Shown here: in pieces, positions 8,573 through 32,035 of the stretch | Numbering within the stretch: position 1 is the stretch's first letter | Layout of the letters: every line of letters begins with the position of its first letter | Assembly (NCBI GenBank): GCA_013360875.1 | Contig: JABWAU010000032.1 | Coordinates: 1 to 32,292 of the forward strand | Direction of reading: 5' to 3' | Length of the DNA stretch: 32,292 bases | Origin: Anaerolineales bacterium | GTDB taxonomy: Bacteria > Chloroflexota > Anaerolineae > Anaerolineales > Villigracilaceae | Position numbers and translations under genes: made by a program | The notes under the pieces: model-generated | What the model was told of the DNA's origin: nothing | Database searches by the model: none | Seen by the model: only the letters and a program-made list of their open reading frames with translations

Positions 8573-8598
8573 CGTAACAATTCGATTTTGGCGGCGTC

Positions 8599-8607
8599 TG
8601 GTATAAA
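8599..8607 (+). promoter_or_regulatory. Extended -10 promoter of rpoD, placed for a leaderless transcript
   Basis: TGGTATAAA (TGn plus TATAAA at 8602-8607) ends 7 nt before the ATG at 8615. A start 7-8 nt downstream of the -10 would fall on or beside the initiation codon. No -35 is evident, which is usual for extended -10 promoters. Confidence 0.5.
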
Positions 8608-8614
8608 AGGGCTT

Positions 8615-10234
8615 ATGGCTGTAAAGAAGAAGCGAACCCCGGCGAAGAAGACAAATCGCTCAAAGCCTGCAAAGCCGCACTCGCCCAATCCGGGTGCGCC
8701 GTTCGATGAGTCCCTCATTGACGAAAACGGGATCGAGACGAACGGGAACGGGCTGGCTGAACTCGCGCTCATGGGAGAGGATGCGGGCGATCCCGACGCG
8801 GGCGTTCTTGCCCCAGAGGAGGAACTTTTAGAAGAGGAGGAATTGGATCTCAAGAGTCCCGAGGTCGCCGCGGAGTTGTCGGGGGACCCGGTGCGGCTGT
8901 ACCTGCGCGAGATCGGACAGGTCAAATTGCTGGACGCCGACAGCGAGTTCAGGCTGGCGACGATGATCGAAGTCAATCGCCTCGTGAACGCCTTCCGCCG
9001 CCGCCCGCCCCGCAAGGGACTTACGCCGCCCTGCGCCCTCTGTCACGCCATTCTCTCCGAACTGCACACCTCGTGGGAACGCCTGCTCGAAGACGCAGAC
9101 CGCCTCCACCACGATCCGCCCGATTTGGGATTGATGCTGAGCGAGGCGCAAGCCTTGCGCGCGGGCTGGTCGTCGGACGCGCCCTCGTACCTGCGCGCTT
9201 TTCTGGATAACGGCAAATGGGGGAGCGACCCGCTGTGGGACGACTTCGCGCGGAAAGCCTATTCGGTCTTTCTCAGCCTGTACCTGATCCCGTTCAATTA
9301 TGCGGCGTGGCTCCTCAACCACATCAACCAAAAACACAAACTGCCGAGCCTGCGCACCATGTACGCCCACCTCCCCGACGATAAGGAAGTGCTGGATGAG
9401 ATCGAACTGGTCAAGGCGCAGGCGAAGGAGGCGCACCAGTCCCTGATCCGCGCCAACCTGCGGCTGGTGGTGAGCGTCGCCAAACGTTACCTGGGACGCG
9501 GCATCAACTTCCTCGACCTCATCCAGGAGGGGAATATCGGTCTCCTGCGCGCGGTCAGCAAATTCGACCCGCGCCGCGGGTTCAAGTTCAGCACCTACGC
9601 CACGTGGTGGATCCGCCAGTCCATCAACCGCTCGATCGCCGAACAAGCGCGCACCATCCGCATCCCGGTGCACATGTTCGAGTCCATCACCCGCATCCTG
9701 CGCGTGCAGCGACAGTTGACGCAGGAACTGGGACGCGACCCCACCAACGAGGAACTCGCCCTCGAAGTGGGCTACCTGCCCGCCTCCGACGTGCAAGCCA
9801 TTCTGCGCGCCCACTCGGAGGACATTCCGCTTTCCCCCGACCTGCAACGCAAACTGGATACCGCCATGCAGAAGATTGACCGCGTCCTGCGTTCCGCCGA
9901 GGAGCCGGTCTCGATTGACGGGCCCGTCGGGGACGAGGAGTCCAGTTCGCTGGGCGATTTCATCGAGGACGAGGACGCGCTTTCTCCCATGGACGCCGCC
10001 GCGCGGCAGATGCTCCGTGAACAGATCCGCGCCGCGCTCACCTCGCTTGCCGACCGCGAACGCGAAGTCCTCGAGATGCGCTTCGGTCTCGTGGACGGGC
10101 AGGATCACACGCTCGAGGAGGTAAGCCGCTTCTTCGACGTCACGCGCGAACGGATACGCCAGATCGAAGCGAAGGCGTTGAGGAAATTGAGGCATCCCTC
10201 GCGGAGCAAGCAGTTGCGGGAATACTTGGGGTGA
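8615..10234 (+). CDS. rpoD: Primary RNA polymerase sigma factor (sigma-70/RpoD)
   Basis: 539 residues. The N-terminus is Lys/Pro-rich ([12 protein letters not shown]) and then acidic, in place of a canonical region 1.1. Region 1.2 starts near residue 89 ([13 protein letters not shown]). A non-conserved insert of about 130 residues follows. Region 2 (about 277-345) includes [27 protein letters not shown] and [13 protein letters not shown], which bind core enzyme and the -10 element. Region 3 is about 350-430. Region 4 (about 475-539) carries [29 protein letters not shown], which binds the -35. The insert holds CALCH at 140-144. ATG 8615 is chosen over an upstream TTG at 8588, because that would run through the promoter. 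Confidence 0.95.
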
Positions 10235-10449: not shown

Positions 10450-10451
10450 GA

Positions 10452-10484
10452 AAGGACCTGGCGGGAAGCCAGGTCCTTTTATTA
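10452..10484 (+). terminator. Rho-independent terminator between rpoD and nuoA
   Basis: Perfect 11-bp stem AAGGACCTGGC / GCCAGGTCCTT, 5-nt loop GGGAA, then TTATTAT. It separates the dnaG-rpoD transcripts from the nuo operon. Confidence 0.85.
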
Positions 10485-10511
10485 TGACAAACATCCCCAG
10501 TTTTGTGAAAA

Positions 10512-10553
10512 GAGACACTTTCACTGGTCTGTGAAAGTCTCTTATGTTATACT
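10512..10553 (+). promoter_or_regulatory. nuo operon promoter with an inverted repeat in the -35 region
   Basis: Extended -10 TGTTATACT (10545-10553), with no consensus -35. An inverted repeat, GAGACACTTTCAC (10512-10524), 6 nt, then GTGAAAGTCTC (10531-10541), fills the -35 region and ends 3 nt before the TGn. Its place and symmetry fit a regulator-binding site; the regulator is unknown. Confidence 0.55.
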
Positions 10554-10616
10554 ACCCCGAACGTTGTGCAAGGAAGTACAATCACCGTCCTGATGGGCGT
10601 TTTGCGTGAGGTCAGA

Positions 10617-10970
10617 ATGCTCGAATACGTTGCAATTGCACTCTTAATCGTTTTGGCGACGCTCGTTGCGCTGATCGCGATCGGATTGGGGTATTTATTT
10701 GGACCGCGGAAGGAATCTGAAGTCAAATCCACGCCGTACGAATCGGGCATCGTCCCCTTCGGTCCTGGGTCGCGGCGCATGCCGGTCCGTTTCTATTTGA
10801 TCGCGGTTCTTTTCATCCTTTTCGACATCGAGGTGGTGTTCTTTCTGCCCTGGGCGATCGTGTTCCGCCAACTGGGACTTTTCGGCTTGATCGAAATGGT
10901 CGTCTTTATCGTCATCTTATTGTTCGGCTACGTTTACGCGTGGAAGAAAGGAGCCCTTGAATGGGAGTAG
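10617..10970 (+). CDS. nuoA: NADH-quinone oxidoreductase subunit A
   Basis: 117 residues, normal for NuoA, a three-helix membrane subunit at the junction of complex I arms. TM1 is near 3-25, then the family loop [12 protein letters not shown], then [22 protein letters not shown] as TM2, which holds the conserved acidic FDIE; TM3 ends in WKKGALEWE. The start is placed at ATG 10617, which has GAGG 5 nt upstream. Upstream in-frame GTG (10566) and ATG (10593) lack good sites. First gene of the 14-gene operon; it overlaps nuoB by 10 bp. Confidence 0.92.
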
Positions 10971-11443
10971 AACAGAAACTCGGCAACATGGGCATCGTGA
11001 CCGCGAAACTGGAGGACGTGGTCAACTGGTCGCGCACCCGCGCCATGTGGCCCATGCTGTTCGGTCTCGCTTGCTGCGCCATCGAAATGATGTCGGCGCA
11101 GGCTTCGCACTACGACATGAGCCGCTTTGGCATGGAACTGATGCGTGCCAGCCCGCGTCAATCGGACTTGATGATCGTGGCGGGCCGCCTCTCGCGCAAG
11201 ATGGCGCCCGTGCTTCGTCGCCTGTACGACCAGATGCCCGAACCCAAATGGGTGATCGCCATGGGCGACTGCGCCTCGTGCGGCGGCGTGTTCAACAACT
11301 ATGCCCTCGTGCAGGGCGTGGACGAGATCGTCCCGGTGGACGTGTTCGTGGCAGGTTGCCCGCCGCGCCCCGAGGCGTTGATCCACGGCATTGTGACCTT
11401 GTGCGAAAAGGTCAAGGGCGAGAAGTTTGTAGTACCGACTTAA
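10961..11443 (+). CDS. nuoB: NADH-quinone oxidoreductase subunit B
   Basis: 160 residues. It carries the terminal [4Fe-4S] cluster N2, which passes electrons to quinone. The expected ligands are all present: adjacent Cys38-Cys39 ([11 protein letters not shown]), Cys104 (GDCASCGG) and Cys133 (AGCPPRPE). It is a peripheral-arm subunit that packs against NuoD and NuoH. AAGGAG precedes the start, inside nuoA. Its last codons and TAA stop lie inside a 26-bp palindrome, so the C-terminal VVPT is encoded by the repeat. Confidence 0.95.
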
Positions 11444-11454
11444 GTCGGTACTAC
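11429..11454. repeat. 26-bp perfect palindrome across the nuoB stop codon
   Basis: Half-site GTAGTACCGACTT with its exact reverse complement and no spacer. The nuoB TAA is at the centre (11441-11443). It shares length and core (CGACTT-AGTCG) with the element at 11983-12008. Confidence 0.9.
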
Positions 11455-11465
11455 GGGGTTGTTTT

Positions 11466-11978
11466 ATGGATAATAAACTCGAACCCGTCGTAAAGGTTTT
11501 GCAGGAGAAGTTCGGCGCAACGTACGAGGAGTTTCGCGGCGAGACGCATGTGTTCGTCACAGCGGAACAGATCATCGAGGCGTTGACGCTCCTGCGCGAC
11601 AAGTATGAATTCGAATTGCTCTCGGCGCTGACTGCTGTGGACTATTACCCGCAGACCTCGCCTCGATTTCATGTGATCTATCAACTGTCTTCGCTGGCGA
11701 AAAATGTCACAGTGCAGTTGAGAGTCCTTGTAAACGGCGACCAGCCCAAAGTCCCGACTGCGAGCGGCGTGTACGAGGTGGCGAACTGGCGCGAGCGCGA
11801 AATCTTCGATATGTTCGGCATCGAGTTCGAGGGTCATCCCGATCCGCGAAGGATCCTGATGCCCGAAGGCACGCAGGGACATCCGCTCCGCAAGGATTTC
11901 CCGCTCGGTTACGAGGAACCGCAGTTCACGTTCAACTTCGAAGAGATTGATCTTCGCAAGCCTTACGCAAAGGAATAA
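11466..11978 (+). CDS. nuoC: NADH-quinone oxidoreductase subunit C
   Basis: 170 residues, the standard length for a separate NuoC (30-kDa subunit) in the hydrophilic arm. The signature ANWREREIFDMFGIEFEGHPDPRRILMP region near residues 108-135 and GHPLRKDFPLGYEEPQ near 140-155 are diagnostic. It has no cofactor and forms the scaffold beside NuoD. It is not fused to nuoD, unlike E. coli. It is flanked on both sides by 26-bp dyad repeats. Confidence 0.93.
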   Translation: MDNKLEPVVKVLQEKFGATYEEFRGETHVFVTAEQIIEALTLLRDKYEFELLSALTAVDYYPQTSPRFHVIYQLSSLAKNVTVQLRVLVNGDQPKVPTASGVYEVANWREREIFDMFGIEFEGHPDPRRILMPEGTQGHPLRKDFPLGYEEPQFTFNFEEIDLRKPYAKE

Positions 11979-11982
11979 TGAA

Positions 11983-12008
11983 GCAGTAGCGACTTCAGTC
12001 GTTACTGC
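11983..12008. repeat. 26-bp imperfect palindrome between nuoC and nuoD
   Basis: Half-site GCAGTAGCGACTT faces CAGTCGTTACTGC; the arms pair with one G-T wobble and a mismatch at the centre. It is a second copy of the nuoB/nuoC dyad type and fills most of the 44-nt gap. Confidence 0.8.
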
Positions 12009-12022
12009 GGTTGAGGCATGAT

Positions 12023-13252
12023 ATGACTCAGATTGAAGAAGTCAATTACGATCAATACCGGCACCTGGTTTCGGAGCGCGCCTTTACCGGCGAGACCATG
12101 CTGCTGAACATGGGACCCCAGCACCCGTCCACGCACGGCGTTCTGCGCCTTCTGCTCGAACTGGATGGCGAGACCATCGTCAACGCCGTTCCGGATATCG
12201 GTTATCTGCACACCGGCATCGAGAAGAACATGGAAGCCAAGACCTATCTCAAAGCCGAGGTGATGAGCGACCGTCTCGATTACATGAACACCGTCGGCAA
12301 CAACCTCGCCTATTGCCTGGCGGTGGAAAAACTGGTTGACCTGGATGTGCCGCCGCGCGCCCAAGCCATCCGTGTGATTCTGACCGAACTGCAGCGCATC
12401 GCCTCGCACCTGGTCTGGGTCGGCACGTTCGGGCTCGACCTCGCGGCGATGTCCATGTTCCTGTACGCGTTCCGCGAGCGCGAATATATCCTCGACATCC
12501 TCGAACTGTGTTCGGGGCAGCGCATGATGACGACTTACATCCGTCCCGGCGGTTTGTGGCGCGATGTGCCTGTGGAATTCGAGACGGCGGTGCGCGACTT
12601 CATCAAGATGTTCCCGCGGCGGATTGACGAATACGAAGCCTTGCTGACCAAAAACCCGCTCTTTCTGGACCGTCTGCTTGGCATCGGGGTACTGGATGCC
12701 GCGACCGCCCTTCAGCACGGCGTGACGGGACCCATGCTCCGCGCCTCGGGCGTGAACTGGGACCTGCGCAAAGCGCGCCCTTACATGGGCTATGAACAAT
12801 ACGATTTCGATGTGCCGGTTCGCCCGGAAGGCGATACCTACGCGCGCTACCTCGTGCGCATCGAGGAATTCCGCCAGTCCCTTCGGATCGTGGAACAGGC
12901 GTTGAACAAACTGCCGATGGGTCCGGTGCGAAGCGATAACCGCAAGTTCGTCCCGCCGCCGCGTTCGGAGATCGGCGTGAGCATGGAGGCGCTCATCCAT
13001 CACTTCAAGTTGTGGACGGAGGGTTTTTCCGCGCCGAAGGGATACGTGTATAGCGCGGTCGAATCCCCGCGCGGCGAATTGGGAGTCTACCTCGAAGGCG
13101 ACGGCGGACCCAAACCGCACCGCGTTCACTGGCGCACGCCCTCGTTCGACAACCTGTCCGTTCTGCCCAAGATCGTGAAAGGGCATCTCGTGGCGGACCT
13201 GGTCGCCATCCTCGCTTCCACCGACATCGTGCTCGGAGACATTGACCGATGA
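12023..13252 (+). CDS. nuoD: NADH-quinone oxidoreductase subunit D
   Basis: 409 residues (49-kDa subunit), descended from the NiFe-hydrogenase large subunit and lining the quinone site with NuoB and NuoH. Visible motifs are NMGPQHPSTHGVLR (the HPSTH loop contacts the quinone head), DIGYLHTGIEKNME, the C-terminal ESPRGELGVYL, and the usual LGDIDR end. The start is ATG 12023, with GAGG 6 nt upstream; an in-frame TTG at 12011 would add MRHD and is less likely. It overlaps nuoE by ATGA. Confidence 0.95.
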   Translation: MTQIEEVNYDQYRHLVSERAFTGETMLLNMGPQHPSTHGVLRLLLELDGETIVNAVPDIGYLHTGIEKNMEAKTYLKAEVMSDRLDYMNTVGNNLAYCLAVEKLVDLDVPPRAQAIRVILTELQRIASHLVWVGTFGLDLAAMSMFLYAFREREYILDILELCSGQRMMTTYIRPGGLWRDVPVEFETAVRDFIKMFPRRIDEYEALLTKNPLFLDRLLGIGVLDAATALQHGVTGPMLRASGVNWDLRKARPYMGYEQYDFDVPVRPEGDTYARYLVRIEEFRQSLRIVEQALNKLPMGPVRSDNRKFVPPPRSEIGVSMEALIHHFKLWTEGFSAPKGYVYSAVESPRGELGVYLEGDGGPKPHRVHWRTPSFDNLSVLPKIVKGHLVADLVAILASTDIVLGDIDR

Positions 13253-13755
13253 GCCTTGCCACCAAATATCCGAAAGAAGTAAAACAGATCCTTTCCAAGT
13301 ACCCGCCGGAGCATAAACGCTCGGCGGTCATGCCGTTGTTGTATCTTGCTCAGCGCGAGGAGGGTTATTTGACCAAAACCGCGATGCAGGAAGTGGCGAA
13401 GATTGTTGACATTACTGAGACCGATGTCGCCGCCATCGTCGGTTTCTATACCCTCTATCACGATAAAAAAGAAGGCAAGTACCGCATGCAGGTCTGCACC
13501 GATTTGCCCTGCGCCCTGCGCGGCGCAGACCAGTTCATGGAAAACCTGTGCGCCAACCTCGGCATCAAGGTCGGTGAGACAACGGAGGACGGTCTCATCA
13601 CGCTCGAGGCTGTGATGTGTCTCGCCGCCTGCGACAAGGCTCCCGTGTTCCAGACACAGGGACCGGATGGAATCAAGTACCACGAGAACATGACCGTGGA
13701 TAGGACGATGGAGTTGATCGCCGCACTGAAGAATGCAGGGGGGGAGGCGAAGTAA
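13249..13755 (+). CDS. nuoE: NADH-quinone oxidoreductase subunit E
   Basis: 168 residues, the 24-kDa thioredoxin-like subunit of the NADH-oxidising module. It holds [2Fe-2S] cluster N1a through Cys83 and Cys88 (CTDLPC) and Cys124 and Cys128 (CLAAC), the expected C-x4-C and C-x3-C pairs. The N-terminal helical part (KYPPEHKRSAVMPLLYLAQ) is typical. Its presence, with nuoF and nuoG, marks an NADH-using complex I rather than the ferredoxin-type 11-subunit form. The start overlaps nuoD by 4 bp, and the stop overlaps nuoF by 1 base. Confidence 0.94.
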   Translation: MSLATKYPKEVKQILSKYPPEHKRSAVMPLLYLAQREEGYLTKTAMQEVAKIVDITETDVAAIVGFYTLYHDKKEGKYRMQVCTDLPCALRGADQFMENLCANLGIKVGETTEDGLITLEAVMCLAACDKAPVFQTQGPDGIKYHENMTVDRTMELIAALKNAGGEAK

Positions 13756-15005
13756 TGGCACACATTCTCCTGCGTCACCGGGACATTCCTGACATCCACA
13801 GACTCGAAGTCTACAAAAAGAACGGCGGTTTCGCCGCGTTCAAAAACGCCGTGACCAACATGAAGCCCGCTGAGGTGACCGACGTGGTCAAGAACTCCGG
13901 TCTGCGCGGGCGCGGCGGGGCGGGCTTCCCCACCGGCTTGAAGTGGTCGTTCATAGACAACAAGAACTGGCCCCATTACGTGGTCGCCAACGCGGACGAA
14001 TCCGAACCTGGCACGTTCAAGGATCGCGAGATCATGGAGGGCAATCCCTTCCAATTCCTAGAGGGAGTTGCCATCGCCTCGTATGCGGTCAGCGCGAACG
14101 TGGCATATGTGTACCTGCGGGGTGAGTTCTGGCAATTGGCTGAATTCCTCGACGAAAAGATCGCCGAGATGGAGGAGGCTGGGTACCTCGGCAAAAACCT
14201 GTTTGGCACGGATTACTCACTCAAACTTTACACCCACCTCGGAGCGGGCGCGTACATCTGCGGCGAGGAGACCGCCCTGCTCGAGTCCATCGAAGGCAAA
14301 CGCGGACAGCCGCGCGTGCGTCCCCCTTTCCCGCCGTCCTACGGTTTGTACGGCAAGCCCACCATCGTCAACAACGTTGAAACGCTGACCAACGTGCCGC
14401 TCATCCTTGCCAACGGCGCGGAGTGGTACAAAAACATGGGGACGCCCGACAGCGCCGGCGTGAAGATCTTTTCGCTTTCGGGTCGCGTCCGCAAGCCCGG
14501 CAACTACGAACTGCCCTTCGGAACGACATTCCGCGAATTGATCTTCACCCACGGCGGCGGCGTGCAGGATTCACGCAAGGTCAAAGCCATCATGCCGGCC
14601 GGCGCCTCCTCCTCCCTCATCCTTGTGGACGACGAGAAGGTTCTCGATACGCCGATGGACTATGCCTCCGTCCGCACGCTCGGCGCGGACCTCGGTTCCG
14701 CCTCTGTGATCGTGGTGGATGAAACCGTCTCGATGGATTGGCTGGTCAACAAGACCGTCCATTTCTTCAGGCATGAATCGTGCGGCAAATGCACTCCCTG
14801 CCGCGAAGGCACGTACTGGATGTCTCATCTCACCGAACGTATTCACGACGGTCGCGCCACAAAAGCCGACGTGGATTTGCTCCTCATCGTGGCGAAACAG
14901 ATGCAAGGCAAATGTTTATGCGCGCTGGGCGAGTTTTCGACGATGGCGGTCGTCACCGGCATCGAACGGTTTAGAAACGATTTCGAAAAGGTTGTAAAAG
15001 CGTAA
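13755..15005 (+). CDS. nuoF: NADH-quinone oxidoreductase subunit F (NADH- and FMN-binding)
   Basis: 416 residues (51-kDa subunit), the entry point for NADH electrons. The glycine-rich NADH site GLRGRGGAGFPTGLKWSF is near residues 48-65. The FMN site NADESEPGTFKDREIME follows, then GAGAYICGEETALLESIEG. Cluster N3 [4Fe-4S] is held by Cys343, Cys346 and Cys349 (SCGKCTPCREG) and Cys389 (CLCALGEF). All key residues are present. Translation is probably coupled to nuoE through the TAATG overlap. Confidence 0.95.
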   Translation: MAHILLRHRDIPDIHRLEVYKKNGGFAAFKNAVTNMKPAEVTDVVKNSGLRGRGGAGFPTGLKWSFIDNKNWPHYVVANADESEPGTFKDREIMEGNPFQFLEGVAIASYAVSANVAYVYLRGEFWQLAEFLDEKIAEMEEAGYLGKNLFGTDYSLKLYTHLGAGAYICGEETALLESIEGKRGQPRVRPPFPPSYGLYGKPTIVNNVETLTNVPLILANGAEWYKNMGTPDSAGVKIFSLSGRVRKPGNYELPFGTTFRELIFTHGGGVQDSRKVKAIMPAGASSSLILVDDEKVLDTPMDYASVRTLGADLGSASVIVVDETVSMDWLVNKTVHFFRHESCGKCTPCREGTYWMSHLTERIHDGRATKADVDLLLIVAKQMQGKCLCALGEFSTMAVVTGIERFRNDFEKVVKA

Positions 15006-15009
15006 TTTA

Positions 15010-15070
15010 TGCGTAGGCGGATGCCGCGAAGCGTCCAACGTCCGCCGCACAAGAGAGTGCGGACTACGCA
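15010..15070. repeat. Three-arm palindromic element between nuoF and nuoG
   Basis: The outer arms TGCGTAG (15010-15016) and CTACGCA (15064-15070) enclose two hairpins: GCGGA/TCCGC (15017-15021 with 15041-15045) and CCGCAC/GTGCGG (15045-15050 with 15057-15062); these share one base at the edge. It occupies 61 of the 76 nt between the genes. Confidence 0.8.
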
Positions 15071-15081
15071 CAGGAAGATTT

Positions 15082-17529
15082 ATGTCAAAGCAGATCACAC
15101 TAACGATTGACAGAAGACAGGTCACGGTTCCGGAAGGAACGCTGGTGGCGGATGCCGCGAAGATGGCTGGCATTGACATCCCTGTTTTCTGTCATCATCC
15201 CAAACTCGAACCGGTCGGCATGTGCCGCATGTGTCTCGTGGAGATCGGGCGCCCGGTGCGCGACCGCGCCACGGGTCAATTTGTGATGGAGAACGGCGCG
15301 CCGAAGATCCAGTTCATGCCCAAACTCGAAACCGCCTGCACGAACAAGGTGGAGGAAGGCATGGTGGTGCTGACGCAATCCGAAAAGGCGGCGGAGGGAC
15401 AAAAGGGAACCATTGAGTTCCTGCTCACTTCGCATCCGCTCGACTGCCCGGTTTGCGACAAGGGCGGCGAATGTCCGCTTCAAAACCTGACGATGGCGCA
15501 CGGTCCTGGCAAGAGCCGCTTTATCTTCGACGAAAAGATGCGCCTCGATAAGATGGTGCCGTTGGGCGAATTGATCTGGCTCGACCGCGAACGATGCATC
15601 CAGTGCGCGCGTTGCATCCGCTTCCAGGATGAGATCGCGGGCGACTCGGTCATCGGCTTCGACGACCGCGGACGCAGGACCCAAATCGTCTCTTTCTCGG
15701 AACCCGGATTCGATTCAGTTTTCTCGGGCAACACCACCGACATTTGCCCGGTCGGCGCGTTGACCACCACGGACTTCCGCTTCGGCGCGCGGCCCTGGGA
15801 ACTGGAGGCGCACGCTTCGATATGTACGCAATGCCCCGTCGGGTGCAACACCACGTTGAACACGCGCCGCGAGGCAAAAGCGGGCGGGAAGATCGTCGTC
15901 AAGCGCGTCATGCCGCGGCAAAACGAGGAAGTGAACGAGATCTGGATCTGCGACAAGGGCCGCTTCGCGTATCACTACACCGAAGGAAAAAAACGGCTCA
16001 CCAGACCACTTGCCCGTAAAGATGGAAAGTTGTTGCGTGTTTCATGGGAAGCCGCGACCAAACTCGCCGCCGAGAATTTCCTCAAAGCGAAGAAGAATTT
16101 CGTCATCCTGGCTTCGGGCAGGCTCTCCAACGAAGACCTGTTCAATTTGAAATCGCTTGCCGATCATTCCGAAGGCCGGGCGTACCTGTACTCTCATATT
16201 GGCGGCGGCGAATTGACCTCGCTCGTGGGCGTGGGCGAGGGGACAAACTTCGCGAAGATGGGCGCAGGCACAACCATCGTAGTGATCGCCTCCAACCTCT
16301 ACGAAGAAGCGCCGATCTGGCACCTGCGCGTCAAACAGGCGGCGGAGCGCGGCGCCACGTTGATCGTGATGAATCCGCGTGGGACCAAACTCGACCGGTA
16401 TGCTTCGTTCGTTGTGCGTTACGCGTATGGCGACGAAGTCAAATCCGTTCAGGAACTCGGCAAGAAAGGCAGGATCGGCGACGCGTTCCTGAAATCCGAA
16501 AACGCCGTCATCCTGTATGGAAGCGAGGGGCTTGGCATTTCGGGTTCGGCAGCGGTCGCCTCTGCCTGCGCGAAATTGTTGAACGATAACGGTTTTGTCG
16601 GCAAGCCCAACAACGGACTCATCGGTGTGTGGGGGCGCGCGAACGACCAGGGCGCGTGGGAGATGGGCTTTGAAGTCGAGGAAGACCTCGCAAAGGTATT
16701 GAAAGGCAAAGCAGTGTATATTGTCGGCGCGGACCCGGCGGCGGACGATCCGAAACTCGCCAAAGCGCTCGAAGGCGCGGAGTTCGTCGCAGCGCAGGAT
16801 GTGATGGAAACCGCCACGACCGAAATTGCGGACGTGGTTCTTCCCGCGCAGGCTTTCACCGAACGCGAAGGCACGTTGACCTCCGGCGAGCGGCGCGCGC
16901 AGCGTTTCTATCCGGCTGTCCCTGTGACGGGCGATGCGAAACCCGATTTTGCCATCACCTCGCAGATCGCGCGTCACATGGGCGTCATCCTCGAAGGCAC
17001 GTCGGTTTCGGCGGTGTTTGACATTCTGGCTGCCTCGGTGAAATCGTTCGAGGGATTGAATTACGCCAAACTCGCGGAAGTGAAACCGCAGTGGCCCATC
17101 GTCGGGCGCGGCGACTTGTATTACGGCGGCACGACCTACGAAAACACGCAGGGCATGGGCGCGCAGTTGTCGGCGGCGGCGGCGCGCGGAGAAAAGGTGA
17201 GCATTCCCCGGGTCCAGAGAGAAGCGCCGCCTCGTCCGAAGGAGAACGAATTGCTGGCGGTGCCTGTCACCAAATTGTATGATCGCGGCACGACCGTCCT
17301 TCCCGCCGAGTTATTGCATGAACGGATCGGCGACGCGAGCCTCATCCTGCATCCCGACGCGGCGAAAAGTTTGGGCGTGGAGGCGGGCCAGGCTGTGAAT
17401 GTCAGTTTCAACGGCGTGAGCGGCGGGGCGGTCGTGAAACTGGACGATACGATCCCGGTGGGTGTGGCATTGATCCCGCGCTCGATGGGACTGGCGATCC
17501 GCGAACCCGTCCCGCTAAAGGTGAAATGA
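15082..17529 (+). CDS. nuoG: NADH-quinone oxidoreductase subunit G
   Basis: 815 residues (75-kDa subunit). The N-terminal ferredoxin domain binds [2Fe-2S] N1b with Cys37, Cys48, Cys51 and Cys86. Then come the His-Cys3 cluster N5 (HPLDCPVCDKGGEC) and cluster N4 (CIQCARC plus the later DICPVG Cys). CTQCPVGC with a later Cys in IWICDKG matches the N7 cluster found in some bacteria. The C-terminal part is the molybdopterin-oxidoreductase-like fold, without an evident molybdenum site. AGGAAG precedes the ATG. It overlaps nuoH by ATGA. Confidence 0.94.
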   Translation: MSKQITLTIDRRQVTVPEGTLVADAAKMAGIDIPVFCHHPKLEPVGMCRMCLVEIGRPVRDRATGQFVMENGAPKIQFMPKLETACTNKVEEGMVVLTQSEKAAEGQKGTIEFLLTSHPLDCPVCDKGGECPLQNLTMAHGPGKSRFIFDEKMRLDKMVPLGELIWLDRERCIQCARCIRFQDEIAGDSVIGFDDRGRRTQIVSFSEPGFDSVFSGNTTDICPVGALTTTDFRFGARPWELEAHASICTQCPVGCNTTLNTRREAKAGGKIVVKRVMPRQNEEVNEIWICDKGRFAYHYTEGKKRLTRPLARKDGKLLRVSWEAATKLAAENFLKAKKNFVILASGRLSNEDLFNLKSLADHSEGRAYLYSHIGGGELTSLVGVGEGTNFAKMGAGTTIVVIASNLYEEAPIWHLRVKQAAERGATLIVMNPRGTKLDRYASFVVRYAYGDEVKSVQELGKKGRIGDAFLKSENAVILYGSEGLGISGSAAVASACAKLLNDNGFVGKPNNGLIGVWGRANDQGAWEMGFEVEEDLAKVLKGKAVYIVGADPAADDPKLAKALEGAEFVAAQDVMETATTEIADVVLPAQAFTEREGTLTSGERRAQRFYPAVPVTGDAKPDFAITSQIARHMGVILEGTSVSAVFDILAASVKSFEGLNYAKLAEVKPQWPIVGRGDLYYGGTTYENTQGMGAQLSAAAARGEKVSIPRVQREAPPRPKENELLAVPVTKLYDRGTTVLPAELLHERIGDASLILHPDAAKSLGVEAGQAVNVSFNGVSGGAVVKLDDTIPVGVALIPRSMGLAIREPVPLKVK

Positions 17530-18704
17530 TGCTATCGGATTGGACTCTCTGGCTCGAGTGGTTTATCAAATCGCTGGTGTTGATCTTTGCGCTGCTGGGC
17601 GGTTTTGCCTATCTCACTTGGTATGAACGCCGCGCGCTGGCGCGCATCCAGTCGCGCATCGGTCCGAATCGCGCGGGACCTCAGGGTTTGCTCCAGCCCA
17701 TCGCCGATGCGGTCAAGTTGATCTTCAAGGAGGAACTTGTCCCCGCCAGGGCGGACAAGCTCCTGTTCTTCTGGGCGCCGATCATTACGATGGTTCCCTC
17801 GATCATTCTTGCAGCGATCATCCCGTGGGGAACGTCGTTCACGGCGTTCGGGCGCGAGATCAAACTGTACCTCGCCGACATCAATGTGGGCGTGCTGTAC
17901 CTGATGTCCATCGCCTCGATCGCGGTCTACGGCATTGTGCTGGCGGGCTGGTCTTCGAACAACAAATACGCGATGCTCGGCGGTCTGCGTTCCTCGGCGC
18001 AGATGATCAGTTACGAATTGACGCTGGGGCTTTCGTTCGTGACCGTCATCATCCTTGCGGATTCGATGCGCTTGATTGACATCGTGAACTCGCAAAGGGA
18101 CATCTGGTTCGTGGTCGTCCAGCCAGTCGGCGCGGTGATCTTCTGGATTGCGACGCTGGCGGAGGTGAACCGCGCTCCGTTCGACATGCCCGAAGCCGAA
18201 CAGGAATTGACCGCCGGTTATCACAGCGAGTATTCGGGCATGAAGTTCGCCCTGTTCTTCATGGCGGAATATCAGAAGATGATCGTCATCTGCATGATCG
18301 CCGCGACGTTATATTTCGGCGGTTATCGCGAGTTCCCCTTCCTTTCCAATACCTTTTTCAGCGTGGATCATACCTGGACCCTCGGCTCGTGGCAGATCAC
18401 GAACTGGTTCCTGGGACCGATCTACCTCTTCCTGAAGGTCGTCGTGTTGTTGTTCGGCATGATCTGGGTGCGCGCCACGTGGCCCCGCATCCGCTACGAC
18501 CGCCTGATGTCCTTCGGCTGGAAGATCCTGCTCCCGCTGTCGCTGGCGATCGCCTTCATTACTGCGGTGGGAATTTTGCTGGCAGACGTGTCGAACAATC
18601 CGGTCTTCTTCTGGGCGATCCCGGTGCTTTCGATAATGGCGGGCTTGTTTACCGTTGCGGTGATTTACCGTGAGTTGAGGAGAAAAGCGTATGAGCGTGC
18701 TTGA
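17526..18704 (+). CDS. nuoH: NADH-quinone oxidoreductase subunit H
   Basis: 392 residues with about eight to nine hydrophobic helices. NuoH anchors the peripheral arm and forms part of the quinone channel. Visible motifs are [33 protein letters not shown] (first cytoplasmic loop), [31 protein letters not shown] (third loop, acidic, quinone and proton coupling) and [21 protein letters not shown] near the end. These are the most conserved parts of the family and all are intact. ATG 17529 is an alternative start three bases downstream. It overlaps nuoI by 14 bp. Confidence 0.95.
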
Positions 18705-19209
18705 CCCTTTTGTCGAACTCCTGCGCGGTCTTGGCATCACGTTCAAGACGATGCTGGATAAGCCGGTGACGTTCCAGTATCCCGAAGAGAAACGTCAGGT
18801 GCGTCCGCGTTTTCGCGGGCGACACGTGTTGAAACGTTACGAGAACGGTCTCGAAAAGTGCATTGGATGTTCGCTGTGCGCCGCCGCCTGCCCTGCGGAC
18901 GCGATCTTTGTGGAAGCCTCGGAAAACTCCGACGAAAAACGCTTCTCGCCCGGAGAGCGGTACGCCTCCACCTACGAGATCAACATGCTCCGCTGTATCT
19001 ACTGCGGATTTTGCGAGGACGCCTGTCCCACCGAGGCGATCGTGCTGGGCGACAACTACGAACTCTCCTTCTACGACCGCCGTTCCGCGATCTACACCAA
19101 GGAGATGCTGCTGGAACCCGTCCCCACCGTGGAGATGACCACACCGCGCAAAGTGGAAGCGGGCGTGTTCACGCGCTCGGTGCCGGAGATGAAAGACCCT
19201 GCCGATTAA
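18691..19209 (+). CDS. nuoI: NADH-quinone oxidoreductase subunit I
   Basis: 172 residues (23-kDa, 8Fe ferredoxin-like subunit). Two [4Fe-4S] sites, N6a and N6b, are complete: Cys57/60/63 with Cys67 ([12 protein letters not shown]) and Cys102/105/108 with Cys112 ([12 protein letters not shown]). It relays electrons from NuoG to NuoB. The start lies within nuoH, with GAGGAG upstream. A repeat-filled gap separates it from nuoJ. Confidence 0.95.
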
Positions 19210-19263
19210 CGATTTACGATTGAGTACAGTCCAATCGAAAATCGTCAATCGTAAATCGTCAAT
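19209..19263. repeat. 7-bp repeats in inverted arrangement between nuoI and nuoJ
   Basis: The right block 19236-19263 is four heptamers of CGWMAAT type. The left block (about 19208-19221) is two units in the opposite orientation. ACGATTTACGATTGA (19209-19223) and 19245-19259 are perfect 15-nt reverse complements, so the transcript can form a hairpin. The block fills nearly all of the 63-nt gap. Confidence 0.85.
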
Positions 19264-19272
19264 GGATATGTT

Positions 19273-19797
19273 ATGACCCTCGACCTAGCCCTCTTCCTCA
19301 TCCTCGCCCTCGTCGCCATTGCCGCGGCGCTTGGCATGTTATTGAGCCGCAACGCGGTGTACTCGGCGTTGTTCCTGGTTTTGAACTTCGTCACGGTGGC
19401 GGTGTTCTACCTGCTTCTCGGCGCGCCGTTCATTGCCATGGCGCAGATCACTGTCTACGCAGGCGCCATCATGGTGTTGTTCCTGTTCGTCATCATGCTG
19501 CTCGGCGCGGAAAGACTGCCCGACGCGAAAGTGCTGCCCTGGCAGAAACCGCTGGCGTACGGACTGGCGTTCGTGCTTGCCGCGGAAGCCACCTATCTGT
19601 TCGTTACGCGCGCCAGACCCGAAGGCGACATCCTGCCGCCCGAAGCGGCAGTCAACACCCTGGATAACCTGCGCGCACTGGGAATTGCCCTGTTCAGCGA
19701 TTACCTCCTGCCGTTCGAGGTGACGTCCATCCTTTTGCTGGTCGCGATGGTGGGCGCGATCCTCCTGACCAAAAAGGAGAAATGGGAGCGGAAATAA
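19273..19797 (+). CDS. nuoJ: NADH-quinone oxidoreductase subunit J
   Basis: 174 residues with five predicted transmembrane helices. NuoJ lies in the membrane arm next to NuoK and NuoA. The conserved TM3 segment is [22 protein letters not shown], which in known structures carries the pi-bulge involved in coupling. A C-terminal helix [22 protein letters not shown] is typical. No strong ribosome site is seen; the 7-bp repeat ends 9 nt upstream. Its stop overlaps the nuoK start (TAATG). Confidence 0.93.
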
Positions 19798-20099
19798 TGG
19801 TCCCTGTCGAGTATTACATCATTCTTTCGGCGGTCCTGTTCTCCATCGGTGTGGCAGGCGTGGTCTTCCGCCGTAATGCGCTCGTCATCTTCATGTCCAT
19901 CGAATTGATGTTGAACGCGGCAAACCTCGCCATCGTCGCGTTCAGCAGCGCTCTCAAATCCTTGGAGGGACAGATCTTCGTGTTCTTCGTCATCGCGGTC
20001 GCCGCGGCGGAGGTCGCCGTGGGGCTGGCGTTGATCGTCGAGATCTTCAAGTCCAAGCGTAGCATTGACGTGGACCAGATGAACAGCATGAAGGGATAA
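19797..20099 (+). CDS. nuoK: NADH-quinone oxidoreductase subunit K
   Basis: 100 residues, exactly the usual NuoK length, with three transmembrane helices. The opening [27 protein letters not shown] and the TM2 segment [19 protein letters not shown] (Glu in SIELMLN, essential for proton transfer in E. coli) are diagnostic; the second glutamate lies in [11 protein letters not shown]. The start is ATG 19797 rather than in-frame ATG 19782, based on the conserved MVP opening. Confidence 0.94.
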
Positions 20100-20106
20100 A
20101 ACGAGA

Positions 20107-20169
20107 GTAGCGTGTAGCGTGCTGCGTATTGCGTGGAGTGCGGAGCGCAAAACGAAACACGCACCACGC
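20107..20169. repeat. Nine-unit 7-bp repeat block between nuoK and nuoL
   Basis: 63 bp made of nine heptamers. The first six are GYRGYGY-like and the last ones are their reverse-complement type (ACACGC, ACCACGC). It ends exactly at the nuoL ribosome site CGGAG and takes up most of the 81-nt gap. Confidence 0.8.
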
Positions 20170-20180
20170 CCGGAGTTCTT

Positions 20181-22322
20181 ATGCACTTAAGCGAAACTGT
20201 AAATTCAGGCTTTTTCTTCCTTGCGCCCTGGCTGGTTCTTGCGCCGGTGACAGGCTTGCTGTTCAACATCGTTTTTGGCGGCAGGCTCGGCGAAAAGGCG
20301 ATCGGCTGGGTCGCCAGCGCGGCGTCGGGCGCGGCGTTCGTCGTCAGCGCGTTGCTGGCATGGTCGCTCGCGGCAAACGGAGGTCACGCGGTGAGCGTGC
20401 CTTTTGCGGAGTGGATCCACATCGGGAGTCTCGAACTCGATTGGACGTTCCGCGTCGATTCGTTATCCACGACGATGATGCTGGTCGTCTCGGGCGTCGG
20501 GACCTTGATCCACATCTATGCCATCGGATACATGCACGAGGACGTGCGTTTCAAACGTGACCCGGGCCGGTTCCGCCGCTTCTTCGTTTTCCTCAACCTG
20601 TTCATCGCCGCCATGATGATCCTCGTGAGCGGAGACTCGTACCTGATGCTGTTCGTCGGCTGGGAGGGCGTGGGGCTTTGCTCCTTCCTACTCATCGGCT
20701 TCTGGTACGAGATGGACACGCTGGCGCGTCCCTCTTGGGCGAATTCGGACGCGGCGAAAAAAGCCTTCATTACGAACCGCGTCGGCGACTTTGGTTTCCT
20801 GATCGCGGGCTTCATCATGTTTTGGGTGTTTGGAAGTTTCCAATTCGATGAAGTGTTCAGCCAGGTTTCGACGATTGCCCCCGGAATCATTATTGCAATT
20901 ACCTTGTTCATGTTGGTTGGCGTTGCAGGCAAATCGGCGCAGATCCCGCTGTACGTCTGGCTGCCGGACGCGATGGCGGGTCCGACTCCTGTCTCTGCAT
21001 TGATCCATGCCGCGACGATGGTGACCGCGGGCGTGTATCTCATCGCGCGTTCCGCGCCGTTGTATTCGTCGGTGCCTGAAGCGCAGAACATCGTTGCGCT
21101 GGTGGGAGCCGTCACCGCGCTCTTCGCGGCGACGATCGCCGTCGGTCAATATGACATCAAGCGCGTGCTGGCGTATTCCACGATCTCGCAACTCGGTTTC
21201 ATGGTTGCCGCGGTGGGCATGGGCGCATACGTGGCGGGGATGTTCCATCTCGTGACGCACGCCTTCTTCAAGGCTTTGCTGTTCCTTTCCGCGGGTTCGG
21301 TGATTCTGGGATTGGAGCGCGGGCATCACCGCGCGGCGCATGGACATCACGATGACCATGGCAAGGGGAAGAAGAAAGCAGGAAAGGGGAAAGAGGAAAG
21401 TGGGGATGAGGAATATCATGAAGAAGTGTTCGACCCCGGCGACATGCGCAACATGGGCGGGCTTCGCAAGACGATGCCGGTCACGTTCTGGCTGTATTTG
21501 ATCGGTGGACTGTCACTTTCGGGAATCTTCCCGTTTGCCGGATTCTGGTCGAAGGATGAAATCCTTGCGGATGCATTCAGGGAAGGTTTCACTGGCGTGT
21601 ATTGGCTCCTGACCGTTGCGGCATTTTTCACCGCCCTGTATGTCGGTCGGCAAATCTGGATGGTCTTCTTCGGCGAGCCGCGTCACGAAGCCGCCGCGCA
21701 CGCGGAGGAAAGTCCGCCCGTCATCATTACTCCACTGGCGGTGCTGGCTTTTCTGGCGACCTTCGGCGGCGCGTTCAATCTGCCCGGCGTTCACACTTTG
21801 ACGGACTGGCTCGAGCATACGATTGAAGTGCACGCAGGCGAGTTTATCTGGAGTGTTGCGATCATTTCGACCATGCTGGCTCTGCTCGCTATCCTGGTCT
21901 CGTGGCTGATCTATGGACGCAATCCGCTCAAGGCTGCACAAGTTGATCCCTTGAAGCGACCCCTTGGTTTCATTTTTACGGGCATGGAAAACAAATGGTA
22001 CGTGGATGAACTCTATCAAGCCGTCATCATCAATCCGTTCAAGAAACTGTCCCAGTTCCTCGCGGACGTGATTGACGAAAGGTTCTGGCACGACTGGTTC
22101 CACGAGAAAGTCATCGCGGGGACGTACAACTGGTTGAGCAACATCGCCTTGGATCGTTATTTCGATCAGCGCGGCATTGACGCCTTCGCGAACGCCCTCG
22201 GCGCGTGGACGCAATCTTTATCGGCAGCCCTCCGCAAGGTCCAGAACGGATTCGTGCGCTCGTACGCGCTGTCCGTGTTGCTGGGTGTAGTCGTAATTCT
22301 TGGATATTTGATTTTCAAATAG
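20181..22322 (+). CDS. nuoL: NADH-quinone oxidoreductase subunit L
   Basis: 713 residues, the largest antiporter-like proton-pumping subunit, with the long C-terminal lateral helix. Core motifs are FVGWEGVGLCSFLLIGFW (key Glu), AGKSAQIPLYVWLPDAMAGPTPVSALIHAATMVTAG, and DIKRVLAYSTISQLGFM. Between about residues 380 and 420, a His-rich then Lys/Glu-rich hydrophilic loop replaces the short family loop before DMRNMGGLRKTMP; part of it is encoded by 7-bp repeats. ATG 20181 is chosen because CGGAG precedes it and the frame further upstream is repeat DNA. Confidence 0.94.
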   Translation: MHLSETVNSGFFFLAPWLVLAPVTGLLFNIVFGGRLGEKAIGWVASAASGAAFVVSALLAWSLAANGGHAVSVPFAEWIHIGSLELDWTFRVDSLSTTMMLVVSGVGTLIHIYAIGYMHEDVRFKRDPGRFRRFFVFLNLFIAAMMILVSGDSYLMLFVGWEGVGLCSFLLIGFWYEMDTLARPSWANSDAAKKAFITNRVGDFGFLIAGFIMFWVFGSFQFDEVFSQVSTIAPGIIIAITLFMLVGVAGKSAQIPLYVWLPDAMAGPTPVSALIHAATMVTAGVYLIARSAPLYSSVPEAQNIVALVGAVTALFAATIAVGQYDIKRVLAYSTISQLGFMVAAVGMGAYVAGMFHLVTHAFFKALLFLSAGSVILGLERGHHRAAHGHHDDHGKGKKKAGKGKEESGDEEYHEEVFDPGDMRNMGGLRKTMPVTFWLYLIGGLSLSGIFPFAGFWSKDEILADAFREGFTGVYWLLTVAAFFTALYVGRQIWMVFFGEPRHEAAAHAEESPPVIITPLAVLAFLATFGGAFNLPGVHTLTDWLEHTIEVHAGEFIWSVAIISTMLALLAILVSWLIYGRNPLKAAQVDPLKRPLGFIFTGMENKWYVDELYQAVIINPFKKLSQFLADVIDERFWHDWFHEKVIAGTYNWLSNIALDRYFDQRGIDAFANALGAWTQSLSAALRKVQNGFVRSYALSVLLGVVVILGYLIFK
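21374..21408. repeat. 7-bp repeats inside nuoL
   Basis: Three clear heptamers GGAAAGN (21381-21401) with a degenerate unit on each side. They encode the Lys/Gly/Glu-rich loop of NuoL in frame. Confidence 0.7.
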
Positions 22323-22384
22323 TCGAAAGTCAATGATCGAAGGTCGAACATTCGACCTGTGACCTTTGACCTTCGACCTAGAGG
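22322..22384. repeat. Head-to-head four-plus-four 7-bp repeats between nuoL and nuoM
   Basis: Four heptamers of GTCGAAR type (22322-22349) are followed without spacer by four reverse-complement type units ending GAC (22350-22377) and a ninth unit, CTAGAGG, that supplies the nuoM ribosome site. The two 28-bp blocks can pair over most of their length. Confidence 0.85.
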
Positions 22385-22391
22385 ATGGAAC

Positions 22392-23903
22392 ATGGAATTT
22401 CTTTTGCAACCTCTTACACTGCTGACCTTCTTCCCGATCCTGGGCGTGTTGGTGATTCTCTTCATGAATTCTGAAATGAAGAACGCCATCCGCTGGGTTG
22501 CATTGGTCGCGTCGCTGATCGCCTTCGGCATTTCGATCTGGGTGTTGACGATGTTCAACGCCTCGAACCCGAACCTGCAACTGGTCGCCAAATACGACTG
22601 GATCACTGTCGCTGGTTGGAACATCCAATATCATCTCGGCATTGACGGCTTGAGCATCCTGCTCGTTCTGCTCACGGCGTTCCTCACGCCGATCTCGATC
22701 CTCTCCACATGGACCGCCGTCGAAGAGCGCGTCAAGGATTTCATGCTCTTCTTCCTCCTGCTCGAAGTAGGCATGACCGGCGTCTTCCTCGCGCAGGATT
22801 TGTTCCTCTTTTACATCTTCTGGGAATTCACGCTCGTGCCGATGTACTTCCTCATCGGCATCTGGGGTGGACCGCGCCGCATCTACGCCGCCATCAAGTT
22901 CTTCCTCTACACGATGGCCGGTTCCATTTTGATGCTGCTCGCCATTTTGTGGCTCGGCATCTACGGCGGGACGTTCTCCGTCCCCGACCTGATCGCGCAG
23001 GGCAACATCCCCTCGGACATTCAACTGTGGCTCTTCCTCGCGTTCACCGCCGCCTTTGCGATCAAAGTCCCGATGTGGCCCCTGCATTCGTGGCTGCCCG
23101 ATGCCCACGTCGAAGCGCCGACGGCTGGCTCGGTCATTCTGGCTGGCGTCCTGCTGAAGATGGGAACCTATGGCTTCCTGCGTTTCAACATTCCCCTCTT
23201 CCCAGAGGCGACCGTCAAAGCCGCCCCGTGGATCGCGCTCTTCGCCACCATCGGTATCATCTATGGCGCGGCCGTCTCCTATGCCCAGGCGGACGTCAAG
23301 AAACTGGTCGCGTATTCCTCCGTCAGCCACCTGGGATTTGTCATGCTCGGTCTGTTCGCCTTGAATCATCAGGGCGTGGCGGGCGCCATCTTGCAGATGA
23401 TCAACCACGGGCTTAGCACCGGAGCGTTGTTCCTCCTCGTCGGCATGATCTACGAACAGACCCACACGCGTGAGATGAAGGTCTACGGCGGGTTGTGGAA
23501 GATCACTCCCGTGTTTGGGACGGTCATGCTCATCGTCGCGCTCTCCTCGATGGGCTTGCCCGGGCTCAACGGCTTCGTCGGTGAGTTCACGATCCTGCTC
23601 GGCGCATTCGGTTCGCAGGCGATTGGCAATGCGTGGTATGCCGCCGTCTCCGCCCTGGGCGTCATCATGGCGGCGGTGTACGTCCTTTACATGTTCCAGA
23701 AGATGTTCCTCGGTCCGCAGGGTGAGGTCGTGGCGGAGGTCAAAAAGCACGGTCACGGCATCCGCGACCTGAACTGGCGTGAGATCGTCACCATGGTTCC
23801 CATCCTGGTCTTCATCTTCTGGATCGGGCTGTATCCCAAACCCTTCTTTGCCCTCATGGCTCCCGCTGTGGAGAATTTGGTGAAGATGTTGCCGATACCA
23901 TAA
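22392..23903 (+). CDS. nuoM: NADH-quinone oxidoreductase subunit M
   Basis: 503 residues, an antiporter-like proton-pumping subunit with 14 helices expected. Motifs are FYIFWEFTLVPMYFLIGIWGG (key Glu), AIKVPMWPLHSWLPDAHVEAPTAGSVILAGVLLKMGTYG (key Lys), DVKKLVAYSSVSHLGFVMLG and SSMGLPGLNGFVGEF. Length and order match the family. The start is ATG 22392, with GAGGATGGA upstream; the in-frame ATG at 22359 lies in repeat DNA. Confidence 0.95.
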   Translation: MEFLLQPLTLLTFFPILGVLVILFMNSEMKNAIRWVALVASLIAFGISIWVLTMFNASNPNLQLVAKYDWITVAGWNIQYHLGIDGLSILLVLLTAFLTPISILSTWTAVEERVKDFMLFFLLLEVGMTGVFLAQDLFLFYIFWEFTLVPMYFLIGIWGGPRRIYAAIKFFLYTMAGSILMLLAILWLGIYGGTFSVPDLIAQGNIPSDIQLWLFLAFTAAFAIKVPMWPLHSWLPDAHVEAPTAGSVILAGVLLKMGTYGFLRFNIPLFPEATVKAAPWIALFATIGIIYGAAVSYAQADVKKLVAYSSVSHLGFVMLGLFALNHQGVAGAILQMINHGLSTGALFLLVGMIYEQTHTREMKVYGGLWKITPVFGTVMLIVALSSMGLPGLNGFVGEFTILLGAFGSQAIGNAWYAAVSALGVIMAAVYVLYMFQKMFLGPQGEVVAEVKKHGHGIRDLNWREIVTMVPILVFIFWIGLYPKPFFALMAPAVENLVKMLPIP

Positions 23904-23908
23904 TCTTA

Positions 23909-23955
23909 CCCTCACCCCAACCTCTCTCCCATCGGGAGAGGGGCAGGGGTGAGGG
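23909..23955. repeat. GC-rich palindrome between nuoM and nuoN
   Basis: Arms CCCTCACCCC (23909-23918) / GGGGTGAGGG (23946-23955), with an inner stem CTCTCCC (23924-23930)/GGGAGAG (23934-23940) and loop ATC. Similar CCCTCACCCC-type palindromes are common intergenic repeats in many bacteria. The right arm overlaps the nuoN ribosome-site region. Confidence 0.8.
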
Positions 23956-23966
23956 ATGGAAACGCT

Positions 23967-25422: not shown

Positions 25423-25462
25423 AGACCTCCGAGTTCTCTGAGAACTCGGAGGTCTTTGATTT
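25423..25462 (+). terminator. Rho-independent terminator of the nuo operon
   Basis: Perfect 16-bp stem starting AGACCTCCGAGTTCTC (25423-25438), with its complement at 25440-25455 and one unpaired base between, so the tip must open to form a loop. TTGATTT follows. Confidence 0.9.
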
Positions 25463-31898: not shown

Positions 31899-32035
31899 GA
31901 AAGCCTCCATTCACACATGCAAGAAATGAAATGCTATCAACACTGCGGGAACCATGTCCCCGCAAGAACAATATGAGGTTGTTGTATTCAAAAATGGTCG
32001 TCGCTCATCTATGAAAAGCGTGCAAAAGCACTCAC

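Follow-up and report, generated by a model that had tools for sequence, protein, structure and literature searches.

The nuo locus

The window, meaning the whole 32,292-nt stretch of DNA analyzed here, is one contig of a draft genome of 3.99 Mb in 208 contigs, and the features described below lie on its + strand unless stated otherwise. Upstream of nuo lies rpoD (8588 to 10234; start codon uncertain), which encodes the primary sigma factor, with matches to Pfam sigma-70 regions 1.2, 2, 3, and 4 and a score above the cut-off of the NCBIfam RpoD_Cterm model. The first gene of the complex I operon, nuoA (10617 to 10970), was assigned by a match to PF00507 above its cut-off, the NCBIfam NuoA models matching below theirs. 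It is followed by nuoB to nuoN (10961 to 25415), which are closely spaced on the same strand and carry the expected subunit Pfam families on each of the 13 open reading frames (ORFs) scanned, nuoI being identified in the Pfam scan by ferredoxin domains only. From this spacing, nuoA to nuoN appear to form one operon. A perfect inverted repeat with a 12-bp stem and a 5-nt loop follows rpoD (10451 to 10479) and is a possible terminator; the scan called it terminator-like on the − strand only, and its position suggests use on the + strand. A second possible terminator, with a 15-bp stem and a 3-nt loop, follows nuoN at the end of the operon (25423 to 25455) and was called on both strands. Within the window we also noted an 11-bp perfect stem with a 4-nt loop that spans the end of nuoB and stops 12 nt before the start of the nuoC ORF (11429 to 11454), and a 530-aa ORF on the − strand (30318 to 31910) that gave no Pfam match at an E value of 0.001.

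Judged by NuoA, the closest named relative is Chloroflexi bacterium CFX6 (97% identical), and the named relatives matched by NuoA are mostly titled Anaerolineales, Anaerolineae, or Chloroflexi. The assembly that contains the window (G000) gave a single nuoA match, compared with two in 16 of 17 other genomes of the genus and none in one; a second nuo operon may be missing from this assembly or may have been lost. In several relatives, the promoter of the second nuo operon has an element like AATATGACGAAAATCACC (L022-L034).

A conserved operator in the nuo promoter

The promoter of nuoA has an extended −10, TATG-T-TATACT (10543 to 10553, with TATACT at 10548 to 10553). Seventeen base pairs before TATACT is a weak −35, TGGTCT (10525 to 10530), which matches TTGACA at 3 of 6 positions. 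An earlier note, made from the sequence of this window, had described an extended −10 without a −35 of its own; the −10 is indeed there, and the remark on the −35 comes close, differing from our assignment by this weak hexamer. The same note had placed a probable operator on a near-perfect inverted repeat, CTTTCAC-N6-GTGAAAG, and the repeat exists as described, with perfect arms at 10518 to 10537. The arms, ACTTTCAC-N6-GTGAAAGT, extend to 8 perfect base pairs (10517 to 10538) and to 12 nt at 92% (10513 to 10524 and 10531 to 10542), and the 6-nt loop is exactly the TGGTCT hexamer.

We compared nuoA promoters from two overlapping sets, 30 loci of the genus and family and 80 named loci, which gave 92 distinct promoters after removal of 18 duplicates from the 110; near-identical promoters of close relatives were kept among the 92. 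An extended −10 of the form TGnTAhAnT was found in 88 of the 92, and four lacked a −10 of this form. The comparison revealed a conserved operator, TTTTGTGAAAAGAGACACTTT, with the frame GTG-N8-CAC, at 10501 to 10521. It corresponds to the family footprint TTTTGTGAAAwGTGrCACwTT, overlaps the inverted repeat and is more strongly conserved than the repeat. At least 15 of its 21 positions were matched in 82 of the 92 promoters, and six scored below 15; these figures are biased upward, as the motif used for scoring was derived from the very promoters that were scored and a −10 of the searched form was a requirement. Scores of at least 18 of 21 were obtained for 62 of 88 promoters and for none of 1760 resampled 200-nt sequences, the largest of which reached 17. 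Among the 60 promoters that share the register of the window, GTGAAA is present in 59 and CAC in 53, and mean pairwise identity is 0.81 over the operator, 0.52 over the spacer that follows it, 0.44 over the leader, and 0.39 over the 20 nt upstream. Conservation of the −10 among these 60 is partly built in by the search pattern. The first T of the −35 hexamer is 95% conserved in them, and the best spacer of 16 to 18 bp gives 2 to 4 of 6 matches to TTGACA in all 60. A strict form of the motif, searched across the class, was found in 3 of 298 genomes, all of the same family; this pattern was too strict and missed the genome of the window as well.

The inverted repeat behaved differently in the same promoters. 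Its arms matched at 7 of 7 positions in 2 of the 60 distinct same-register promoters, at 6 of 7 in three, and at 5 of 7 in five, and the two full matches are the promoter in the window and that of a sibling genome (G016), which is near-identical throughout. The complementarity of the arms averaged 3.4 of 7, compared with 3.2 (standard deviation, 0.08) when arms were permuted between sequences (P = 0.01, with relatedness uncontrolled). The exact repeat occurs at a single place in the 3.99-Mb assembly, and with up to three mismatches it was not enriched in the whole genome, with 159 + 159 matches on the two strands compared with 162 + 162 for the reversed control. A shared operator at the repeat was rejected on this lack of conservation and enrichment. 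The earlier note had itself named loss of the repeat in front of nuoA in close relatives as evidence against its proposal, and since the arms are not kept in relatives, the repeat does not survive its own test. A terminator at the repeat was rejected as well: the scan did call one on both strands, but only 3 of the 8 pairs are G-C and the repeat lies upstream of the likely transcription start.

The left arm of the repeat consists of the last four bases of the operator and three more, and the right arm is part of the semi-conserved GAAAGTCTCTTATG before the −10. In this species, the repeat would be a by-product, the right end of the operator being by chance complementary to GAAAGTC, a semi-conserved part of the spacer that precedes the −10. 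That it instead functions as an operator restricted to this species and its closest sibling seems to us very improbable. Its arms do flank the −35 hexamer exactly, it recurs in the sibling, and it is rarer than chance: when the 137-nt stretch from 10480 to 10616 was shuffled with its dinucleotides preserved, 13 of 1000 sequences contained a perfect stem of at least 8 bp with a loop of 3 to 10 nt. The two full matches in 60 promoters and the absence of enrichment in its own genome speak against it. The proposal of a redox-linked operator in the nuo promoter is therefore partly supported, right in kind, since an operator that is probably redox linked is present, and wrong in place, the real site being 10501 to 10521. 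The region that had been outlined, 10512 to 10553, takes in the repeat and the −10 but cuts through this operator, which starts at 10501.

Two spacings and an upstream element

The distance from GTG to the extended −10 in the 82 promoters is 43 bp in 60, 42 bp in seven, 31 bp in ten, 30 bp in three, and 32 bp and 34 bp in one each; no operator was found at 35 to 41 bp. Among the 67 promoters of the long register, the distance from the −10 to the start of NuoA varies from 44 to 216, and the operator spacing is fixed all the same. Both registers occur within the genus, with 8 of 17 loci at 43 bp, one at 42 bp, and eight at 31 bp. In the register of the window, the operator lies upstream of the −35. 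Long-register −35 hexamers match TTGACA at 2 to 4 of 6 positions; in the short register, all six positions are matched only in the three promoters at exactly 30 bp, the promoter at 34 bp matches at one, and the rest match at 3 or 4.

Across the order, we scored 27 further promoters, six from the same family and 21 from 13 other families. Twelve reached at least 15 in register and 15 did not, although nearly all of the genomes of these 15 have Rex; the operator was absent in register from, for example, G039, G040, G045, G050, and G059. In four families (f7, f9, f12, and f14), the operator resembles TTGTGAAATTTGACACC, whose TTGACA is a consensus −35 at 17-bp spacing (5 of 27 promoters and more in a second set). 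The operator contains the −35 in these families, and a bound protein would cover it. In the second order-level set, which comprised 29 loci and included one genome already represented among the 27 promoters (G046), the operator core lay at 30 to 31 bp in 17 of the 26 loci that could be placed, three not being placed.

A degenerate CRP/FNR-type element, ATGAC-AAAC-ATCCCC in the window (10484 to 10498) and ATGACnAwtATCACC in relatives, lies upstream of the operator. The pattern TGAY-N4-RTCH, starting 17 to 19 nt upstream of the operator, occurred in 37 of the 67 promoters of the long register and in none of the 15 of the short register, compared with about 0.6% in shuffled sequence; most of the short-register promoters come from close relatives, so few independent events lie behind this difference. 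A similar element precedes the second nuo operon of relatives. The suggestion that the complex I operon is controlled at one site is thus too simple, given the second, CRP/FNR-type element in these 37 long-register promoters.

Related sites at other respiratory genes

The earlier note had recommended a search before other respiratory genes, and this was productive: sites related to the operator precede a haem-copper oxidase operon and NDH-2-like genes. The pattern TTTGTGAAAWNNNRCACWTT, which was drawn with the nuo and oxidase sites both in mind, has two exact matches in the genome of the window, at nuo and at the haem-copper oxidase operon. With up to two mismatches, it gave 62 matches in 8 genomes compared with 9 for the reversed control (strand counts summed). 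The oxidase was named from a COX1 Pfam match in one genome (G025) and a match to the CoxB model far below its cut-off. In 10 of the 13 loci placed, its site falls downstream of the likely −10 and ahead of the ribosome-binding site (by eye; 2 of 15 were not placed); the site is missing from G004, G001, and G006. The oxidase promoter also has an element similar to the CRP/FNR-type element of nuo, like TGTAACnAAAGTCACTGC, about 29 bp before the likely −10 (hand count, one genome).

The NDH-2-like genes, pyridine nucleotide oxidoreductase genes (Pyr_redox_2) named by eye, drew attention through two sites before one such gene, and a survey of the family showed TTGTGAA-N6-CAC at 9 or 10 of 10 positions in 23 of 27 loci (shuffle P ≤ 0.02 each). 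In 18 of these 23 loci, the site directly follows the likely −10; in the other five, the best-scoring site precedes that −10 (both counted by eye). The four loci without a site include two with a coding-looking upstream stretch and two distant paralogues. Mostly lying past the likely −10, the sites at the oxidase and NDH-2-like genes would fit a repressor.

Promoters of rex share this frame. Across the order, TTGTG-N8-YACAA was matched at 9 or 10 of 10 positions in 22 of the 27 rex promoters placed (3 of 30 were not placed; L266-L295), for the most part at 31 to 32 bp from an extended −10. All 11 promoters placed within the family have their GTG at 31 or 32 bp from the −10, a distance near that of the short nuo register. 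These sites have the frame of the nuo operator with different inner bases, such as TTGTGTGGAATTGTACAA.

CRP-type sites of the form TTTGTGA-N7-CACA were also abundant, with 33 matches in 6 genomes and 4 for the reversed control; several of these are nuo or oxidase sites themselves (nuo in G025; the oxidase in G000, G016, and G025). Of 29 matches viewed, 18 are intergenic and 11 lie inside an ORF of at least 100 aa. Their neighbors (L057-L086) include nrfH, cydA, an FNT channel, HdrB/C-like genes, multihaem cytochromes, and others; NrfH scored above its NCBIfam cut-off, a CydA fragment scored below its own, and the others were named by eye. About 3.3 kb from the nrfH site (G000:C182:18909-18926) is a CRP/FNR-type gene whose predicted recognition helix contains REVVSR (L214). 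In G025, three CRP/FNR-type genes stand in a row (G025:C1:1497196-1498878), about 1.6 kb from a TTTGTGA-N6-TCACA site.

Candidate regulators of the nuo operator

As the main reading, we lean towards binding of the nuo operator at 10501 to 10521 by Rex, the dimeric sensor of NADH/NAD+. Rex is encoded in these bacteria: PF06971 matched above its cut-off in 9 of 9 genomes, and a Rex match was found in 111 of 121 genomes of the order, that in G402 being weak and probably spurious. The Rex protein of the genome containing the window aligns over nearly its whole length with solved Rex proteins (best E value, 2e-51), and the NCBIfam Rex models match a sibling protein that is 96% identical to it. NADH dehydrogenases and terminal oxidases are Rex-type targets, and the predicted sites lie at nuo, at the NDH-2-like genes (23 of 27 loci), and at the oxidase (10 of 13). 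At low NADH, GTGAAA-N5-CAC would be occupied by Rex, with the edge of the protein extending into the −35 region, and nuo would be kept repressed; as NADH rises, Rex would be released and more complex I would be made. The oxidase operon and the NDH-2-like genes would be held down by the same protein, mostly at sites where it would obstruct RNA polymerase across or beyond the start. In this scheme, the operator with its conservation and two spacings, the related sites at three respiratory promoters, and the presence of Rex are observations, whereas Rex binding, repression by binding and the direction of the redox response are all inferred.

The main rival is a protein of the CRP/FNR family, HcpR- or DNR-like, that binds 10501 to 10521 and either activates or represses nuo, perhaps as one of two tandem dimers, the other bound to TGAC-N4-ATCA about 21 bp upstream (hand count); we regard it as possible but doubtful. 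The GTG-N8-CAC spacing is also that of TGTGA-N6-TCACA, which the nuo site of the window matches at 8 of 10 positions and the family consensus at 9 of 10. The genome has 11 HTH_Crp_2 matches, eight of them above the cut-off (one of the eight ArsR-like), and the abundance of the CRP-type sites described above points the same way. The core HcpR target is hcp. In Geobacter and Desulfuromonas, nrfHA and ndh are among the members of HcpR regulons, according to an excerpt of the published survey (PMC1274295). The fixed spacing of the operator suggests contact with RNA polymerase; a repressor that simply blocks would not require so strict a spacing as 42 to 43 bp, which counts against the Rex reading. 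Operator sequence pulls the other way. Directly before CAC, 35 of the 60 nuo promoters that share the register have A, 24 have G, and one has T, so that of the CRP/FNR half-sites TGTGA and TCACA the left is present and the right is not, and the two do not occur together. With T in only 1 of 60, the second half-site is without the A6 position, which is usually used in CRP/FNR recognition as described in the same excerpt (PMC1274295). This absence of T next to CAC would count for Rex over a CRP-type protein. The placement of the operator may be a further point against a CRP-type activator. Sites of such activators are usually centered near −41.5 or −61.5, and the operator is centered at about −48.5 or −36.5 (hand count from the predicted start), not a usual class I or class II position.

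Consensus scores and phylogenetic distribution did not decide between the two. Against the Rex consensus of Staphylococcus aureus, TTGTGAAWWWWTTCACAA (taken from an excerpt of PMC2883068), nuo sites matched at 13 to 14 of 18 positions, oxidase sites at 15, and NDH-2-like sites at 15 to 17, the last with 17 of 18 for the site in G005 and 15 of 18 for that in the genome of the window. The nuo site of the window matched at only 13 of 18, and 73 of 1000 shuffled sequences did as well. Scores of 15 to 16 of 18 were also obtained for the nrfH, FNT, and cydA sites, and because the nrfH site, taken as CRP/FNR type, reaches 16, this score does not separate Rex from CRP/FNR sites; by consensus scores, nuo fits neither clearly. 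Of 29 genomes, 26 were evaluated for both; 15 of the 19 with Rex have the nuo operator, as do two of the seven that lack Rex, some of the latter being incomplete, and Rex presence does not predict the nuo operator well. Other observations that count against Rex are the different inner bases of the rex promoter sites, the oxidase site missing from three genomes, and the five NDH-2-like promoters with the best site upstream of the likely −10; in favor of it are the repressor-like positions of most other sites and the spacing at the rex promoters. A regulator of another family, for example an ArsR-like protein encoded about 6 kb from the oxidase site, seems distinctly unlikely. An ArsR-like profile match does lie about 5.9 kb from that site in G000, where the protein was read, and 5.8 kb from it in G016, but in G004 the corresponding gene is some 14 kb from the site, in G025 it is distant, and no motif points to this candidate.

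A bolder reading, in which one operator acts in opposite ways in the two registers, draws on the weak −35 (2 to 4 of 6) and the upstream CRP/FNR-type element of the long register. At 30 to 31 bp, the bound protein would repress over the −35; at 42 to 43 bp, it would contact RNA polymerase and be needed for transcription. We think this improbable, and a caution is that in the short register only the three promoters at exactly 30 bp have TTGACA.

Relation to known systems and significance

The closest parallel to the Rex reading is Streptomyces avermitilis, whose Rex directly regulates nuo, cyd, atp, rex, and ndh2 and, in the excerpt of the study drawn on here, gives protection from −42 to −16 at nuoA1 and from −3 to +25 at cydA1, its operators thus lying over the −35 or past the start (PMC5355995). 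As in the Rex operator (ROP) of nuoA1-N1 described there, the same operon has GTG-N8-CAC in its core promoter, one half-site is strong and one weaker, and related sites stand at other genes for NADH oxidation or oxidases, including one located, here by prediction, past the transcription start (PMC5355995). Unlike the S. avermitilis sites, which keep TTCAC, the weak half here is GACACwT-like; the nuo promoters studied here also differ from that ROP in having two −10 spacings and, in many relatives, an adjoining CRP/FNR-type element, and their regulator is a candidate (PMC5355995, same excerpt). HcpR and CRP-type operators, given as wTGTGAnnnnnnTCACAw in the excerpted survey, resemble the nuo operator in their GTG-N8-CAC spacing, in their respiratory targets, and in the presence of like sites elsewhere in the genomes, and differ from it in that the second half of the nuo site has no T before CAC in 59 of 60 promoters (PMC1274295).

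Little is known of respiratory-chain control in Anaerolineales, on which there was nothing among the literature matches listed. Our searches, with subscription papers mostly outside their scope, returned no match for Rex with Chloroflexi and, among the matches listed for Anaerolineae or Anaerolineales with Rex or Crp regulation, none on the nuo promoter. Judging from promoter comparison, the conserved operator probably ties respiration to the redox state of the cell, and one motif common to complex I, the NDH-2-like genes, and the oxidase suggests a respiratory regulon linked to NADH that is open to test. Differing by about one helical turn and both occurring even within one genus, the two spacings form a natural experiment on the effect of operator position on a promoter; if the bolder reading were true, the gain or loss of one helical turn, even within one genus, would have changed a site of redox repression into one of activation.
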